From contig NC_019689.1 of the NCBI RefSeq assembly GCF_000317025.1, forward strand, positions 2,147,501 to 2,211,500: DNA of 64,000 bases. The letters run 5' to 3'. Both the position numbers and the translations under genes were made by a program. The stretch is from Pleurocapsa sp. PCC 7327 (GTDB lineage Bacteria; Cyanobacteriota; Cyanobacteriia; Cyanobacteriales; Microcystaceae). The notes under the pieces were generated by a model. The model saw nothing but the letters and a program-made list of their open reading frames with translations. It was not told the origin of the DNA and did no database searches. Position 1 is the first letter of the stretch. The number at the start of each line of letters is the position of its first letter. Below, in pieces: positions 11,717-24,501 of this stretch.

Positions 11717-14128
11717 CTATTGTTGTAAGTGTTTTTCTAAAATTTTTTCGGCTCTAGGCTTATAAATTAAATGAAATAAAGCTTCCAAATATCGATACAA
11801 TGCTTCGCGGTTTTCTTGAGAAATATGGTTCCAGAAATTAGAGATTTTAGAGAGCGAAACCAATTTTCTGGTGTGATCTTGCCAGTTATATCGATCTCGG
11901 ACTTGCTCGATCGCTCCTTGGGAGATTTCGTGCCAATATTGGGGATATACCTCGCATTTATCGATAAAATCGACGATTTTTTGGGCAGTTCCTTCGAGAT
12001 CGGTGGGGTTGATGTGAAACCCACTGATTCCTTCTCGAAGAATTTCTAAAGCGCCGCCGAATTGAGTGGCAAACGTAGGCAAGCCAGAAATCATCGCTTC
12101 GAGTATGGTAATCCCAAATGCTTCAAAACGGGCAAAATGAACGAATATTCCTCTAAAATCGGCGATAACTCGATAGGCTTCGCCAAGATCGGCGCTAGTC
12201 AGGCGCATTCCCAGCCAACGAATTTGACCCTGAAGGTGATATTGCTCGATGAGCGCGTGAAGACTCTCGATTTCTTTTCTTTCTTCTGGATTAGTAGCTT
12301 CCTCGGCATGTAAGTTGCCCAGTGACATAATCAAATTACAACGTTCTTGCAAAGCTTGGCTTCGACCGAAGCATTCTACCAGTCCTGTAAAATTTTTGAT
12401 AGCATTAATCGGTCCAACCGCAAAAATCGGTCGCTTGTTGGGGTTGTCTAAATACCCTAGAATGCGAGGGTCTTCGTCGGTAAAAAGTAAATTATAAATC
12501 CGTTTGCGATCGCTCTCTATTCTATCTTCTGTTTGCGTATAGGGGAAAAAAATATTTTCGTTGACTCCTGGCGGCACGACATTAAATTTAGGACTAAATA
12601 ATTCTATTCCATCGATCGCATGATAAAGCTGCGGCATAGTGAAACATTTGTACGACTCATACTGACCCATATTGTCGGGATTGCCTACGATTTCTTGGTA
12701 AGAAGAGGCAATAATGAAGTCAGCCGCATTCATGGCGATCAGGTCGGCGGTAAACTGTGCCGAGAAGTGATATCGCTCCTCTAAATCTTGCCAATATAAA
12801 TCGCTAAATAAATATCTGGGTTTCTCTAGGGCATGGGCAATATTGCACTGGGTCGCTTGAAAACGGCGGGCAAGCAGGAAGGCAACTAAATTGCCATCGC
12901 TGTAGTTGCCAATGATTAAATCGGGCTTTCCTTTCAGTTGGGCGATTAATTCTCTTTCTGCATCTAGAGCAAAGGTCTCTAGATAGGGCCAAATCTCAAA
13001 TTTAGAAATCCAGTTCTGAGTCACTTTAGGATTGAAGTCTTGGAAAGGAACCCTTAAAATCCAAGCATTTTCGGTGCCGTAGACTTTTTCTAGGCGGAGA
13101 TTGCACGAGGTTCCTTCGCAGTTGGGAATGAGGCGAGTAAGAATGATAACTTGAGGTTCGATGCCAACCACGTCGAGTCCTGCCTGATGCATTTCTTCGC
13201 GCAATTGATGTTCCAAGCTGCGGGCTTGATCGAGGACATAGACGACTTGCCCAACTGTTTCTGCTCGTCCCAAAACGTTTTCTTGCCCGACCCAGCCGTG
13301 TACGGAGATGAGAACGACGCGCCTGGTAATGGGAAGACGGGCGATCAAAGCTTCTACAACGGCGTGTTGTGGATTGGAGATCGACCGTTCGAGCAGTTCG
13401 AGAGTTTCTCGAATGCGAGATGCCGTATTGCCCCAACCCGGTTCAAAGCCCAATTGTTGGAATTGAAGGCGGAATGTTTCGTAGGGCATGTTGGGAGGCA
13501 ACTGATTGACAAATTCGATCGCTTCTTTAACGCGATCGATCAATTCGGTTGCCGAACCAATGCGATCGTTAATGAACAGCGAGATGCCGTCGTGCTGATG
13601 CTCGTGCAGGATGTTGAACAATCCTTCGAGCCAATGTTGGGGGTTGGCAGAAATTTTGCCAAACAAATAGCGGTGGAGAAACTCTAGTCCTTGACCGATA
13701 TTTCTGGGATCGTCAACAATGGGAGCGCCTCGATAAAAGGGACTGAAATCTATCTCTAAGATTTGGGGAGCGTAACGGTCAACCAAGCGATCGCGCAGAT
13801 CTAGCAAGGCTTGGGCGGTCATCGGTTCGACGCAACTGAGGTCGGCGGCGAGCCGAAAGACTTGTTGACTGCCGATTCTGGGCCGCAGGAGAAACCAGAA
13901 ACTTTCCCCATCAAGCAGAATTTCATGGGTGTGATGAATCAGTTGCGCTATGGAGGAGGAATGGTAAAAATACGCTGGTTTGTCTAATTGCCGACAGCTT
14001 TCTTCAAATGCCCGTTGAATTTCATTGCGCACAAAGAACTGCTTGCCCGAAGTCCTTAATTCCGCCAGCAACTGACGCAGTGTCTTTTTTTCGTCGCTAT
14101 TTAAGACAACTTGAATCAGTTCGTACAT
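11717..14128 (-). CDS. susA: Sucrose synthase
   Basis: 803 residues, the length usual for cyanobacterial sucrose synthase. An N-terminal regulatory region (about 1-240) precedes a GT-B glycosyltransferase family 4 domain with ISVHGWVG, NCEGTSCNLRLEKVYGTE, KPDLIIGNYSDGNLVAFLLA, FAVGPINAIKNFTGLVECF, and the nucleotide-sugar-binding region FARFEAFGITILEAMISGLP with the E-x7-E motif. It reversibly converts sucrose and NDP to fructose and NDP-glucose, feeding glycogen or cell-wall sugars. It is the first gene of a likely two-gene unit with the GH65-phosphoglucomutase fusion. The start is the ATG at 14128. Confidence 0.93.
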   Translation of the reverse strand: MYELIQVVLNSDEKKTLRQLLAELRTSGKQFFVRNEIQRAFEESCRQLDKPAYFYHSSSIAQLIHHTHEILLDGESFWFLLRPRIGSQQVFRLAADLSCVEPMTAQALLDLRDRLVDRYAPQILEIDFSPFYRGAPIVDDPRNIGQGLEFLHRYLFGKISANPQHWLEGLFNILHEHQHDGISLFINDRIGSATELIDRVKEAIEFVNQLPPNMPYETFRLQFQQLGFEPGWGNTASRIRETLELLERSISNPQHAVVEALIARLPITRRVVLISVHGWVGQENVLGRAETVGQVVYVLDQARSLEHQLREEMHQAGLDVVGIEPQVIILTRLIPNCEGTSCNLRLEKVYGTENAWILRVPFQDFNPKVTQNWISKFEIWPYLETFALDAERELIAQLKGKPDLIIGNYSDGNLVAFLLARRFQATQCNIAHALEKPRYLFSDLYWQDLEERYHFSAQFTADLIAMNAADFIIASSYQEIVGNPDNMGQYESYKCFTMPQLYHAIDGIELFSPKFNVVPPGVNENIFFPYTQTEDRIESDRKRIYNLLFTDEDPRILGYLDNPNKRPIFAVGPINAIKNFTGLVECFGRSQALQERCNLIMSLGNLHAEEATNPEERKEIESLHALIEQYHLQGQIRWLGMRLTSADLGEAYRVIADFRGIFVHFARFEAFGITILEAMISGLPTFATQFGGALEILREGISGFHINPTDLEGTAQKIVDFIDKCEVYPQYWHEISQGAIEQVRDRYNWQDHTRKLVSLSKISNFWNHISQENREALYRYLEALFHLIYKPRAEKILEKHLQQ

Positions 14129-14783: not shown

Positions 14784-17285
14784 ATGGTACAAACAACGAT
14801 CGATCGCGCATCGTCACAGCCTTCCAAAGAAAATGCATTAATTCTGTGGTTTGAGGAAGTTGGCATAGCCGATATTCCCCTCGTAGGTGGGAAGAACGCC
14901 TCTTTAGGCGAAATGATTCAACAGTTGACCCCCAAAGGCGTAAACGTTCCCACTGGCTTTGCCACCACTGCCTATGCTTTTCGCTACTTTATCGAAAAAG
15001 CTGGCTTGCAAGCGAAGTTGCGCGATTTATTTGCCGATTTGGATGTAGAAGATGTCAACAACCTGCGCGAACACGGCAGACAAGCTCGCGCCCTCATTCT
15101 CAACACCCCCTTCCCGTCCGAACTAGAGCTAGCTATTACTCAGGCTTACCTGAGACTATGCGAGCGCTATGGCGATGGCGCTGCGGCATGCGATCGCTAT
15201 GAAGGAGCCGAGAAAGAAGAGTGCAAGCGCTATCTGAGCGATACTGACGTTGCCGTGCGCTCTAGCGCCACCGCCGAAGACTTACCCGACGCTAGCTTTG
15301 CCGGACAGCAAGAAACCTATCTCAATGTCCACGGCGTTATCGGCGTTCTCGATGCCTGCCACCGCTGCTTTGCCTCGCTGTTTACCGATCGCGCCATCTC
15401 TTATCGAACAATTAAAGGCTTCGACCACTTCGAGGTTGCCCTCTCGGTCGGCGTACAAAAGATGGTACGCTCCGACCTAGCCGCCTCTGGGGTCATGTTC
15501 TCTATCGACACGGAAACGGGCTTCAAGAATGCAGCGCTGATTACGGCTGCTTACGGTTTGGGTGAAAACGTCGTTCAAGGCGCGGTCAACCCAGACGAGT
15601 ACTTCGTCTTCAAGCCCACCCTCAAGCAAGGATTCCGACCCATCTTAGAGAAGCGCCTGGGCAGCAAAGAAATCAAGATGGTCTACGATGTCGGCGGCGG
15701 CAAGCTGACCAAGAACGTTCCTGTCCCCGAACCAGAACGCAAAAAATATGCCATCACCGATGACGAAATCATCACCCTGGGCAAGTGGGCTTGTATTATT
15801 GAAGACTATTATTCAGAAGTACGCGGCAGCTACACGCCGATGGATATTGAATGGGCAAAAGACGGTTTGACGGGAGAACTCTTTATCGTTCAAGCTCGTC
15901 CGGAAACCGTCCAATCGCAAAAATCCGGTAGCGTCCTCCGTAGCTTCAAACTGAAAGGCACGGGTGAGGTAGTTGCCAAAGGTCGTGCCGTTGGCGAGAT
16001 GATAGGACAAGGTAAAGCTCGCGTCATTCTAGACGTTCATAAGATCGACGAATTCCAACCAGGCGAAGTCCTGATTACTAATAAGACCGACCCGGATTGG
16101 GAGCCGATCATGAAAAAATCCAGCGCGATCGTCACCAACCAAGGCGGACGGACTTGCCACGCAGCGATTATTGCACGGGAAATGGGCATCCCCGCGATCG
16201 TCGGTTGTGGCGACGCAACCGCAGTCGTGAAGACGGGCGAAGAAGTCACCGTCTCCTGTGCGGAAGGGGAAGAAGGACGGGTTTATAGAGGGTTAGTGCC
16301 TTTTGAAGTCCAAGAAACCCAGTTAGATAACCTGCCTCGCACCCGCACCAAAATCCTCATGAACGTGGGTAACCCAGAAGAAGCCTTCGGTCTGGCTTCC
16401 ATTCCCTGCGATGGCGTAGGATTAGCCCGTTTGGAATTTATCATTGCCAACCACATTAAAGCTCACCCGCTGGCTCTAATGCACTTCGACGAACTCGAAG
16501 ACGAAAGCGTTAAGCAGGAAATTGCCCAGCTCACCGCTCTCTACGACCACAAGCCCAACTTCTTCGTAGATAAGCTGGCTCACGGCATCGGCACGATCGC
16601 GGCGGCTTTCTATCCCAATCCAGTCGTCGTCCGCATGTCCGACTTTAAGAGCAATGAATACGCCAACCTCTTGGGCGGCAAGCAGTTCGAGCCAGAGGAA
16701 GAAAACCCGATGATCGGCTGGCGCGGCGCATCTCGCTACTACGATCCCAAGTATGCCGAAGCCTATGGCTTAGAGTGTAAGGCACTCAAGCGCGTCCGCG
16801 ATGAAATGGGCTTAACTAACGTTATCCCCATGATTCCTTTCTGCCGCACGCCCGAAGAAGGTCGCAAAGTGTTGGCAGAAATGGAAAAACACGGTCTCAA
16901 ACGCGGCGAAAATGGCTTACAAGTCTATGTCATGTGCGAGATCCCCAGCAACGTCATCCTCGCCGACCAATACAGCGAAATCTTTGACGGCTTCTCCATC
17001 GGTTCTAACGACCTGACTCAGCTTACCTTGGGACTCGATCGCGACTCCTCCCTAGTTGCCCACATCTTTGACGAACGGAACGATGCAGTCAAAGAAATGG
17101 TACGCCAAGTCATCGCGAAAGCCAAGAAAAACGGTCGCAAGGTCGGTATCTGCGGTCAAGCACCCAGCGATTATCCCGAATTTGCTCGCTTCCTAGTTGA
17201 GTTGGGCATCGATTCGATTAGCTTAAACCCCGATTCAGTGCTGAAGACATTGCTCGATATCGCTAAAACCGAAGGCGTTAGCTAA
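14784..17285 (+). CDS. ppsA: Phosphoenolpyruvate synthase (pyruvate, water dikinase)
   Basis: 833 residues, close to the usual PEP synthase length. The ATP-grasp domain is N-terminal (VGGKNASLGEM at about 34-44, RSSATAEDLPDASFAGQQ). The swivelling phosphohistidine domain carries GGRTCHAAIIAREMGIPA with the catalytic His (about 450). The PEP-binding barrel is C-terminal (GVGLARLEFI, SIGSNDLTQLTLGLDRDS, KVGICGQAPSD). It makes PEP from pyruvate and ATP with release of AMP and phosphate. Its place upstream of CBS-CP12, nifJ and phosphofructokinase suggests a role at the pyruvate node during light/dark or anaerobic shifts. A strong terminator follows, so it is probably monocistronic. Confidence 0.95.
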   Translation: MVQTTIDRASSQPSKENALILWFEEVGIADIPLVGGKNASLGEMIQQLTPKGVNVPTGFATTAYAFRYFIEKAGLQAKLRDLFADLDVEDVNNLREHGRQARALILNTPFPSELELAITQAYLRLCERYGDGAAACDRYEGAEKEECKRYLSDTDVAVRSSATAEDLPDASFAGQQETYLNVHGVIGVLDACHRCFASLFTDRAISYRTIKGFDHFEVALSVGVQKMVRSDLAASGVMFSIDTETGFKNAALITAAYGLGENVVQGAVNPDEYFVFKPTLKQGFRPILEKRLGSKEIKMVYDVGGGKLTKNVPVPEPERKKYAITDDEIITLGKWACIIEDYYSEVRGSYTPMDIEWAKDGLTGELFIVQARPETVQSQKSGSVLRSFKLKGTGEVVAKGRAVGEMIGQGKARVILDVHKIDEFQPGEVLITNKTDPDWEPIMKKSSAIVTNQGGRTCHAAIIAREMGIPAIVGCGDATAVVKTGEEVTVSCAEGEEGRVYRGLVPFEVQETQLDNLPRTRTKILMNVGNPEEAFGLASIPCDGVGLARLEFIIANHIKAHPLALMHFDELEDESVKQEIAQLTALYDHKPNFFVDKLAHGIGTIAAAFYPNPVVVRMSDFKSNEYANLLGGKQFEPEEENPMIGWRGASRYYDPKYAEAYGLECKALKRVRDEMGLTNVIPMIPFCRTPEEGRKVLAEMEKHGLKRGENGLQVYVMCEIPSNVILADQYSEIFDGFSIGSNDLTQLTLGLDRDSSLVAHIFDERNDAVKEMVRQVIAKAKKNGRKVGICGQAPSDYPEFARFLVELGIDSISLNPDSVLKTLLDIAKTEGVS

Positions 17286-17837: not shown

Positions 17838-17989
17838 GACCTTGATAAGTAACCGAGAATTTGCTTGTCCTATATACCAAACCTTGTTAGTCTCATCCAA
17901 GTAGATTCCTGAATATTCGGGAAGTGGCTCTTTTGCTTGTAGGTGAAATCATTCTATGACTCAGCGCTGGTTGACTGACAAATCTTTGT

Positions 17990-18097
17990 CCCCTCATCCC
18001 TCAATCCCTTCTCCCACAAGGGGTGAAAGGACTTCAGGCAAAAGTCTTAAGTTGAAAACCCCTCTCCCAGAGCGGGAGAGGGGTTGGGGTGAAGGCG
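17990..18097. repeat. Interspersed C-rich/G-rich palindromic spacer repeat
   Basis: The core is a perfect 10-bp palindrome, CCCCTCTCCC (18059-18068) and GGGAGAGGGG (18074-18083), preceded by 'ccctcatccctcaatccc' and a 'tctcccacaaggggtgaaa' stretch. A shorter relative is at 63543-63583. This type of repeat is common in spacers of filamentous and colonial cyanobacteria. Confidence 0.75.
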
Positions 18098-18210
18098 ATT
18101 TGAGTTTTGTCACTCAACCAGGACTCAGCAACGCCCAAAGTTCAGTTGCATTCAAAAATCTCCATTGTCCTTGAGGGTTAACAATAATCTGTAGCTCTTA
18201 GCCTGCAAAA

Positions 18211-18406: not shown

Positions 18407-19018
18407 ATGAAAGCAGCAGATATCATGACGACGGAAGTAGTGACGATTCGCGGTTCGGCAACGGTAGCTGAGGCAGTAAAATTGATGAAAGAAAAAAGCC
18501 TGCGTGCTTTAATTGTAGATCGCCGACACGACGAAGATGCCTATGGGATACTTACCGAAACTGACATCGTCTACAATGTCACTGCTTATGGAATCGATCC
18601 CAAACAGGTGCGCGTCTGCGATATCATGACTAAACCGTGCATCGTTATCAATCCAGACTTGCAAGTAGAATATGTTGCCCGGTTGTTTGCCAAGACAGGC
18701 ATTCGCAGGGCACCCGTTATCAAAGATAAGCTGCTGGGGATTGTTTCAGTAACCGATATTCTGCAAAAAAGTAATTTCGTCGAGCAACCGAAAATCACTA
18801 AGCTAGAGCAAGAAATTCAAAAAACGATCGCTCATGCACGCGCTATCTGCGCCGAAAAAGGCACGACTTCTCCCGATTGTGCTGCTGCCTGGGATATCGT
18901 GAAAGAGTTGCAAGCTGAAGCTGCCCATCAAAAAGCAGAAAAGCTTCCAAAAACCGCTTTCGATGACTACTGCGAGGAGTTCCCCGAAGCCTTAGAAGCA
19001 AGAATGTATGAAGTGTAG
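18407..19018 (+). CDS. CBS-CP12 fusion protein
   Basis: 203 residues. A CBS pair (Bateman module; about 1-125, with DIMTTEVVTI and VCDIMTKPCIVI) is joined to a CP12 domain (about 135-203). CP12 features are clear: the N-terminal cysteine pair in ICAEKGTTSPDCAAAWD, a helix ending in QAEAAHQK, then FDDYCEEFPEALEARMYEV. CP12 links GAPDH and phosphoribulokinase and shuts down the Calvin cycle; CBS pairs sense adenine nucleotides. The fusion family is known in cyanobacteria and is thought to tie Calvin-cycle inhibition to energy charge. The second C-terminal cysteine of classical CP12 is missing (ALEAR in place of the usual A-x-E-C-R), so only one disulfide can form. An intrinsic terminator follows. 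Confidence 0.93.
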   Translation: MKAADIMTTEVVTIRGSATVAEAVKLMKEKSLRALIVDRRHDEDAYGILTETDIVYNVTAYGIDPKQVRVCDIMTKPCIVINPDLQVEYVARLFAKTGIRRAPVIKDKLLGIVSVTDILQKSNFVEQPKITKLEQEIQKTIAHARAICAEKGTTSPDCAAAWDIVKELQAEAAHQKAEKLPKTAFDDYCEEFPEALEARMYEV

Positions 19019-19750: not shown

Positions 19751-23410
<3,660 letters not shown>

Positions 23411-23490: not shown

Positions 23491-24501
23491 ATGGATTTAA
23501 CGACCACTTATATGGGATTGAAGCTGCGATCGCCCCTCGTCGTTGGCGCGGCAGCCCCGCTAACCGAAGATATCGACAACATCAAGCGAATGGAGGATGC
23601 GGGAGCGGCAGCGGTCGTATTGCATTCGTTATTCGAGGAACAACTTAGGCAAGAACAGCTTGAATTACACCACCACCTCGAATACAAAACCTATAGCTAT
23701 GCCGAATCCCTAACCTTTTACCCCGAACAAGAAGTCTTTCACGTCGGACCGGAGGAATATCTCAAGCACATTCGCAAGGCAAAGGAAACGACCAACATTC
23801 CCATTATCGCCAGCCTCAACGGTTTGACCCCTGGCGGCTGGACTGACTATGCCAAGCAAATCGAACAGGCGGGCGCAGATGCACTGGAATTAAACATCTA
23901 TTACGTGCCGACCGATCTGGATCTGCCCGGTTCTCAAGTCGAGCAAACTTATCTGTCTATTCTGCGTGCCGTCAAATCGGTAGTCAATATTCCTGTTGCC
24001 ATCAAATTGAGTCCTTTCTTCAGCAACACGGCAAATATGGCAAAACAGCTCGTCGAAACAGGAGCAGACGCGCTGGTTTTGTTTAACCGCTTTTACCAAC
24101 CCGACATCGATATCGAAAACTTGGAAGTGCAAGCCAACGTCCTGTTAAGTACGCCCCAAGCAATGCGCTTGCCCATGCGCTGGATTGCCATTCTCTACGG
24201 TCGCATTCAAGCCGATCTAGCCGCAACTAGCGGCATCCACAAAGCGCATGACGTGTTGAAAATGCTAATGGCTGGCGCGAGTATCACGATGTTAGTCAGC
24301 GTGTTGCTGCGTCACGGAATCCGGGAGATTGCGTCGATTGAAGAGGGAATGCGTCATTGGATGGAAGAACACGAATATGAGTCGGTCAAACAAATGCAGG
24401 GCAGTATGAGCCAAATCAATTGTCCCGACGAGAGTGCTTTTGAACGCGCCCAATATATGAAAGCCGTTCAAACGTATAATCCAGAGCGATTGCTTATTTG
24501 A
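23491..24501 (+). CDS. Dihydroorotate dehydrogenase-like FMN barrel protein
   Basis: 336 residues with the TIM-barrel pattern of the class 1/2 DHOD superfamily: start LTTTYMGLKLRSPLVVGAAA, then ADALELNIYYVP, VPVAIKLSPFF-like INIPVAIKLSPFF, and a late GADALVLFNRF. The strand that carries the catalytic Cys or Ser in true DHODs (N-x-S/T-C-P-N) reads LELNIYYVPTD here, so the usual catalytic residue is absent. I therefore call it DHOD-like and not PyrD. It has a GAGGAG ribosome site and lies directly after nifJ, so a redox role linked to PFOR is a reasonable inference. The substrate is unknown. Confidence 0.82.
   Translation: MDLTTTYMGLKLRSPLVVGAAAPLTEDIDNIKRMEDAGAAAVVLHSLFEEQLRQEQLELHHHLEYKTYSYAESLTFYPEQEVFHVGPEEYLKHIRKAKETTNIPIIASLNGLTPGGWTDYAKQIEQAGADALELNIYYVPTDLDLPGSQVEQTYLSILRAVKSVVNIPVAIKLSPFFSNTANMAKQLVETGADALVLFNRFYQPDIDIENLEVQANVLLSTPQAMRLPMRWIAILYGRIQADLAATSGIHKAHDVLKMLMAGASITMLVSVLLRHGIREIASIEEGMRHWMEEHEYESVKQMQGSMSQINCPDESAFERAQYMKAVQTYNPERLLI

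Follow-up and report, generated by a model that had tools for sequence, protein, structure and literature searches.

The class of CP12 proteins that lies closest to the gene described here, CP12-N-CBS, has CBS domains in front, an N-terminal Cys pair and an incomplete C-terminal pair (Stanley, Raines and Kerfeld, 2013, as cited in the accessible part of PMC3906501), and modelling had already suggested that such fusions are unable to interact with GAPDH (Stanley 2013, via the same part of PMC3906501). GAPDH binding by canonical CP12 was abolished when Cys4 was mutated to Ser (Wedel and Soll, 1998, as cited in the accessible part of PMC9514657). For CBS-CP12, the available sections of two further sources report no ternary complex with phosphoribulokinase (PRK) and GAPDH and an AMP-dependent inhibition of PRK activation (PMC9406205; PMC9514657). 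The literature on a relative with four CP12 cysteines likewise describes AMP binding, a hexamer, PRK inhibition and no ternary complex. The CBS-CP12 of Synechococcus PCC 7002 was unable to take the place of canonical CP12 in Synechocystis (PMC9514657, same sections), a failure that fits a separate role for CBS-CP12.

Here we examine one such gene within a window of 64,000 nucleotides from Pleurocapsa sp. PCC 7327 (i.e., the whole stretch of DNA analysed), together with its relatives. It is a member of the known cyanobacterial energy-sensing CBS-CP12 family, of the CP12-N-CBS class, and in itself offers little that is new; specialist attention is better directed to the pairs of genes that share one split CP12 and to the pattern of gene neighbourhoods across the family.

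The CBS-CP12 gene and its product

The open reading frame has exact limits, with an ATG start and a TAG stop, and its product follows the Pfam domain order of the CBS-CP12 fusion family, two CBS domains and then CP12 (Table 1). Five cysteines are present: Cys71 and Cys78 in CBS domain 2, Cys148 and Cys158 as the N-terminal pair of CP12—retained, as the first-pass annotation had stated—and Cys189, the third CP12 cysteine (C3). The C-terminal tail, YCEEFPEALEARMYEV, is of the ALEAR type noticed in that annotation and has Ala198 in place of the last classical cysteine (C4), so that Cys189 is left without its partner and the classical C3–C4 disulfide loop indeed cannot form. Because Hydrococcus rivularis (the nearest relative, 95% identical) and LEGE 06147 carry the same EAR tail, Ala198 is not a sequencing slip. 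Set against the description of the CP12-N-CBS class, the protein has the N-terminal pair (Cys148, Cys158), an incomplete C-terminal pair (Cys189, Ala198) and five of the six fixed letters of the AWD_VEE core, Lys166 replacing Glu; set against canonical (N/C) CP12, with both Cys pairs, it lacks the fourth cysteine. The retention of one Cys of the C-terminal pair (Cys189) and the Lys in the core are observations that go beyond the earlier note.

The core of CP12 to which Lys166 belongs is needed for glucose catabolism in Synechocystis, according to the accessible part of PMC9514657. Among the 212 rows that have this column of the AWD_VEE core, Lys166 (18902–18904) is the sole Lys, the residue being Glu in 185 and Asp in 20; the Hydrococcus relative has Glu. 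Since the charge is reversed in a core that lies beside the PRK-binding pair, PRK binding by the window protein may be weakened, and, judged from the alignment, Lys166 could matter more for this binding than the missing Cys. Both CBS motifs of the form G-x-x-S/T-x-x-D, which we take to be the nucleotide-binding motif of CBS domains, are intact, with D53 and G111 in 236/236 rows and D117 in 233/236, and the control by CBS nucleotide binding proposed in the first-pass annotation is to that extent plausible. A conserved thiol in CBS domain 2, Cys78 (18638–18640), is present in all 236 family members.

An AlphaFold2 model of the protein (53 sequences; mean pLDDT 85.3) shows the CBS pair, a two-helix hairpin (residues 129–151 and 156–176) and two short tail helices, the end of the tail being least certain (pLDDT <50 at residues 201–203). 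By sequence and by fold its best PDB matches are the CBS-CP12 structures 5nmu, 5npl and 5nvd, and the top six chains are all CBS-CP12 at 65–69% identity (68% for the best fold match, 5nmu, in that alignment). Against these structures the query TM-score is 0.64–0.67 and the rmsd 5–7 over the chain, i.e., the relative placement of the domains differs or is unsure. The CBS-CP12 chains in the PDB have modelled lengths of 171–181 against a 208-residue chain, which suggests that some 30 residues are unseen in the crystals.

Table 1. Features of the window and loci with a divided CP12 (window positions, except for the loci of the last row)
Feature	Position	Strand	Details
Sucrose synthase family gene, upstream of PPDK, opposite strand	11717..14128	-	Pfam GT-B_Sucrose_synth, SUS domains
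Pyruvate phosphate dikinase (PPDK) family gene, upstream	14784..17285	+	Pfam PPDK_N, PEP-utilizers, PEP-utilizers_C
CBS-CP12 fusion gene	18407..19018	+	203 aa; ORF and translation, Pfam CBS and CP12 above cut-offs
CBS domain 1, residues ~3-58 (edges approximate)	18413..18580	+	Two Pfam CBS stretches; motif G47-T50-D53
CBS domain 2, residues 70-120	18614..18766	+	Best Pfam stretch; Cys78, motif G111-S114-D117
CP12 domain, residues 133-202	18803..19012	+	PF02672, E 1.3e-29, profile 1-70 of 70
N-terminal Cys pair, Cys148 (18848-18850) and Cys158 (18878-18880)	18848..18880	+	Sequence
AWD_VEE core, reads AWDIVKEL, Lys166 for Glu	18887..18910	+	Alignment rows
Lone third CP12 Cys, Cys189	18971..18973	+	Sequence
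Codon GCA for Ala198, where classical CP12 has its fourth Cys	18998..19000	+	Sequence
Pyruvate:ferredoxin oxidoreductase (PFOR, nifJ-like), downstream	19751..23410	+	Pfam POR_N, POR, EKR, PFOR_II, TPP_enzyme_C
Dihydroorotate dehydrogenase-like gene	23491..24501	+	Pfam DHO_dh
Split CP12 loci (13)	L257:4325-5555; L234, L235, L244, L245, L247, L249, L251, L252, L258, L264, L270, L276

Tail cysteines and the division of CP12 across the family

Relatives were drawn from two samples: the best 80 of 247 relatives in a scan of genome contigs, and 140 regions from a search of 388 genomes of the class, 144 of them with a match at E <= 1e-50 (among the 150 matches listed, 3 were from the window's own genome, 140 were taken in and 7 were left out). 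Together with the window and two own-genome regions these gave 252 frames, or 236 unique proteins once 16 duplicates had been dropped before counting. The three CBS-CP12 of the window genome, none of which has C4, supplied the search profile, and both collections were ordered by their similarity to this profile, so that the family counts lean towards the kin of the window protein. As a control we used the stand-alone CP12 of the same genome and 29 other loci, which, chosen as its best matches, favour canonical CP12.

The missing fourth cysteine is the usual state of the CBS-CP12 family as sampled. Among 190 unique full-length proteins in this sample leaning to the window protein's kin, 129 keep C3 only, 30 have both tail cysteines, 31 have neither and none has C4 alone; the 388-genome search by itself (n = 119, full-length) gives 69 C3-only, 20 both and 30 neither, and the top-scoring stand-alone CP12 have both in 30/30. 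As C4 is absent from 160 of the 190 full-length relatives, the C4-less tail can be regarded as a stable state. By the same count, the missing Cys is neither peculiar to the window gene nor an error, and the loss does not set the protein apart in the way first supposed, its class having already been described. Nor do all other CBS-CP12 lack this Cys, an eventuality that the first-pass annotation had considered, the alignment having it in 30/190 full-length proteins. Specifically, C4 is replaced in the 129 C3-only rows mostly by Ala (95), Ser (14) or Val (9), and over the 208 rows that have the column it reads Ala in 119, Cys in 30, Ser in 17 and Val in 12, while C3 is Cys in 175 of the 213 rows having its column. 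The N-terminal pair is intact in 173/190 full-length proteins. Tails ending in WCxG, found in 22 unique proteins (L003 of the window genome, L087 and 20 others), bring an extra C-terminal Cys, and 11 of these 22 have lost the third CP12 Cys.

The genome of the window (one contig, 4.99 Mb) has four CP12 genes, one stand-alone and three CBS-CP12. The stand-alone protein has four Cys and ends ECRVYDD; the fourth CP12 Cys is absent in all three CBS-CP12. One paralog (L003) ends YCLEYPEALEARMLDSWCSG, with its extra Cys further downstream, and the other (L004) has lost the first Cys of the N-terminal pair and ends FCQEHPEILQVRHQVLETTT.

Within the family, CP12 is also found divided over two genes. 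Short CBS proteins of 149–176 aa (23/236) pass from the CBS domains directly into the CP12 tail, without hairpin or N-terminal pair (e.g., YCEEFPDAPEARIYED in L249), and a further 23/236 are without an alignable tail, 22 of them stopping after a hairpin with the N-terminal pair and one (L231) being an odd form. In 13 of the 23 short forms the same-strand neighbour, 60–260 bases off, is a tail-less form (Table 1); the remaining short forms have a full four-Cys neighbour (7), a degenerate-tail neighbour (1) or no partner within 1500 bases (2). One CBS gene of such a split pair thus ends after the hairpin, with the N-terminal Cys pair and the AWD core, and the adjacent one has the C-terminal tail only; both members have a complete CBS pair, so that the arrangement is a division of CP12 over two genes and not a simple frameshift. 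C3 alone is kept in 16/23 short forms and C4 in 0/23, and five of the split tail halves (L247, L251, L252, L258 and L276) have diverged to a Cys-free form, SYMD[DN]PEVLQ[EQ]REYDV. That a tail is kept without the hairpin speaks against control resting on the N-terminal pair alone. At the 10 tail-less loci that have no short partner, the tail motif was absent up to 1500 bases on either side. In seven loci (L088, L095, L100, L102, L110, L220 and L233) a short tail-only CBS protein lies beside a full-length four-Cys CBS-CP12, and most of these cluster with trxA, often also with petF and adk. A split CP12 was not found described in the open-licence literature searched, including the accessible parts of PMC3906501, PMC9406205, PMC9514657, PMC3610870, PMC7281370, PMC9025218 and PMC9199185. 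The split pairs offer a natural means of telling apart the functions of the two halves of CP12.

Gene neighbourhoods

In the window, the CBS-CP12 gene lies between a PPDK family gene and a PFOR gene (Table 1), an order shared with Hydrococcus (L034) and LEGE 06147 (L037). The gap from PPDK to CBS-CP12 is 1121 bases in the window, 247 in Hydrococcus and 114 in LEGE 06147, and that from CBS-CP12 to the downstream PFOR is 732 bp; with gaps of 1121 and 732 bp to its neighbours the window gene is not clearly in one operon. An interspersed repeat of ~155 bases (17967–18123; ~40 genome copies, 84–95% identical) lies between PPDK and CBS-CP12, in DNA that is missing from the shorter Hydrococcus gap. 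A general link of CBS-CP12 to PPDK and PFOR was considered and dropped, both being nearby in only 2 of the 80 best loci, several of which are too short to show the neighbours. PFOR alone, cut by the locus end, occurs at the edge of one hox locus (L106). An 80% identical CBS-CP12 was met on a contig titled as a Candidatus Gracilibacteria MAG (L035), probably a misbinned cyanobacterial contig.

Across the family, neighbours were labelled by clustering and by Pfam of one representative per cluster. For trxA, petF, adk, hoxE, hoxF, hoxU, hoxY and hoxH the representatives agree with their labels in Pfam; that of hoxW has no Pfam match, was named by eye and was left unused in defining a hox neighbourhood, and one label covers proteins with CBS domains alone. 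Distances were taken from stop-to-stop frames, so that a close upstream gene can appear downstream, as hoxU does at L003, although the ORF list places it ahead of this paralog. On this basis, 37 of the 236 unique CBS-CP12 lie near hox genes (hoxE, F, Y or H being in view for 35 and hoxU alone for 2), and 24 of the 37 stand between hoxY and hoxH. Among the full-length proteins, 18 carry a nif/mod label: 6 have a Pfam-checked nif gene among their nearest genes, or 11 if a putative molybdate transporter is counted, and for the other 7 the label rests on genes that merely recur with nif or molybdate genes. Of the two paralogs in the window genome, L003 starts 13 bases downstream of a gene from the HoxU cluster, and L004 has close to it homocitrate-synthase-like and ArsC-like genes whose clusters recur at nif-type loci. 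A tail of the type 'C.EHPEILQVRH' or similar was observed near nif or putative molybdate-transport genes in L183, L204, L208, L214, L215, L223 and L227, where Pfam assigns the neighbours to NifW or to ABC/solute-binding families; L004 shares this type of tail.

The state of the tail varies with the neighbourhood. Both C3 and C4 are present in 22/25 full-length proteins of the trxA cluster (20/23 when the trxA gene itself is required in view), 6/6 near an lpt cluster and 2/107 elsewhere, against 0/34 near hox and 0/18 with the nif/mod label, and the contrast of 22/25 with 0/34 gives a Fisher p of 2.6e-13. Proteins that share a neighbourhood are often closely related, and a tree of the CBS columns (144 columns, 236 rows; 99/230 inner branches open) offers only 3 independent contrasts on well-supported branches, which leaves a sign test powerless and the association of C4 with neighbourhood confounded by ancestry. 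We regard the pairing of four-Cys forms with trxA, and of C4-less forms with hox, as a weak lead that ancestry alone could explain. The Microcystis CBS-CP12 gene reportedly lies with trxA, as the window gene does not, and Hackenberg and co-workers are said to have remarked in 2018 that CBS-CP12 neighbourhoods vary, several being unrelated to photosynthesis, so that the hox and nif links may have been reported before. We take the Anabaena gene alr0765 to be a CBS-CP12 gene. The accessible part of PMC4915528 gives this hox-operon gene as a hypothetical protein. CBS-CP12 at nitrogenase genes was not found described in the same open-licence literature as was searched for a split CP12.

Function and comparison with known systems

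We lean, with some reserve, towards the window protein acting, like the CBS-CP12 of Microcystis, as an AMP-sensing brake on PRK with no recruitment of GAPDH. The CBS pair would sense adenine nucleotide, the CP12 helical hairpin keeps its N-terminal Cys pair beside a tail unable to close a disulfide, and the oligomer, with AMP bound at low energy charge, would restrain phosphoribulokinase activation with no GAPDH recruited. For this we infer from the domains, Cys state, CBS motifs and fold, and from the one PRK-family and two GAPDH-family loci of this genome; the biochemistry comes from a relative, and as that reference protein has four CP12 Cys its transfer to the three-Cys class is an assumption. 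The placement between PPDK and PFOR in three species suggests that the protein may act in dark or anoxic metabolism. The PPDK reaction makes or uses AMP. Thioredoxin may stay reduced in the dark or under anoxia, in which case a disulfide switch would open at the wrong time; hypothetically, the class as a whole would serve metabolism of this kind.

The missing Cys bears on GAPDH less directly than the first-pass annotation implied. Its argument that the C-terminal loop which binds GAPDH cannot form stands, and the canonical Cys4-to-Ser mutant makes loss of GAPDH control a fair expectation for the window protein. Yet the protein of the solved Microcystis-type structures carries the fourth Cys (DALECRIYD), and the ternary complex is reported absent even where CBS-CP12 keeps the ECR Cys, so that lost GAPDH recruitment would not have been caused by the missing C4.

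Several other readings have to be weighed against an AMP-sensing brake on PRK. The target of the protein might be not PRK but the product of a neighbouring gene (PFOR or PPDK in this case, hydrogenase or nitrogenase in that of the paralogs), CP12 having been co-opted as a module for docking to enzymes that are oxygen-sensitive or fermentative. The proteins near hox (37/236, 24 of them between hoxY and hoxH), the 18 with a nif/mod label (6 with a Pfam-checked nif gene, 11 with the putative molybdate transporter) and the positions of the two paralogs agree with such a partner; however, neighbourhood speaks for co-regulation at most and not for contact, most rows retain the N-terminal pair and the AWD core, as PRK binding would predict, and the neighbourhood of the window gene is itself poorly conserved. 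We consider this reading unlikely. In the tail, the lone Cys189 could be a redox element, through an inter-subunit disulfide, a mixed disulfide or pairing with Cys78, so that thiol control persists by another route. C4-less tails do keep C3 in 129/160 full-length and 16/23 short proteins, C4 alone is kept in 0/190, and Cys78 is present in 236/236 rows, but this Cys is just as invariant in rows without C3, which means that no covariation backs a pair. C3 is not indispensable either, since the tree requires at least 16 changes of it, compared with 11 of C4, and since 11/22 of the WCxG-type tails have lost it, and a redox role of Cys189 seems to us decidedly unlikely. That the tail of the CP12-N-CBS class is a decaying remnant without function we judge very improbable: its end is modelled with pLDDT <50 at residues 201–203, C4 and sometimes C3 vary, and 5/13 split pairs have a Cys-free tail half, yet the 145 tails with C3 but without C4 are conserved at Pro (145), Phe (142), Arg (133) and Tyr (124), and tail residues are still kept in the short CBS proteins that bear the tail alone.

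For the family as a whole we offer a tentative and rather doubtful proposal, in which CBS-CP12 would be energy-charge switches that drop the tail disulfide wherever the gene serves a metabolism that is oxygen-sensitive or fermentative (hydrogenase, nitrogenase, PFOR). CP12 would moreover be separable, the 13 split loci encoding mixed CBS oligomers that would rebuild CP12 only when both subunits assemble. Should AMP-sensing CBS-CP12 variants truly match hydrogenase, nitrogenase and pyruvate modules by their tail-Cys state, cyanobacteria would have a disulfide-free brake on the Calvin cycle for the dark without oxygen, where thioredoxin signals could mislead. While the window gene alone matters little, the wider family pattern may matter.

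Compared with described systems, the short CBS-plus-tail genes resemble GapB and algal ADK3 in having a CP12 tail on another protein, although in the available sections of PMC9406205 the GapB and ADK3 tails read CxxxPxxxxC with both Cys, whereas the last Cys occurs in 0/23 short CBS forms. Canonical stand-alone CP12 shares the hairpin and tail with the window protein but differs in having both C3 and C4, no CBS domains and, per the literature, a GAPDH/CP12/PRK complex. With the CP12-N-CBS class, as far as the accessible review text describes it, the window protein shares the N-terminal pair, the incomplete C-terminal pair and the CBS domains in front, and differs in the Lys of its AWD_VEE core and perhaps in keeping one Cys of the C-terminal pair. 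The CBS-CP12 of Microcystis (PDB 5nmu, 5npl, 5nvd; Hackenberg et al., 2018) shares with it domain order, fold, CBS motifs and the N-terminal pair, the difference being the fourth CP12 Cys on the Microcystis side and Ala198 on that of the window.
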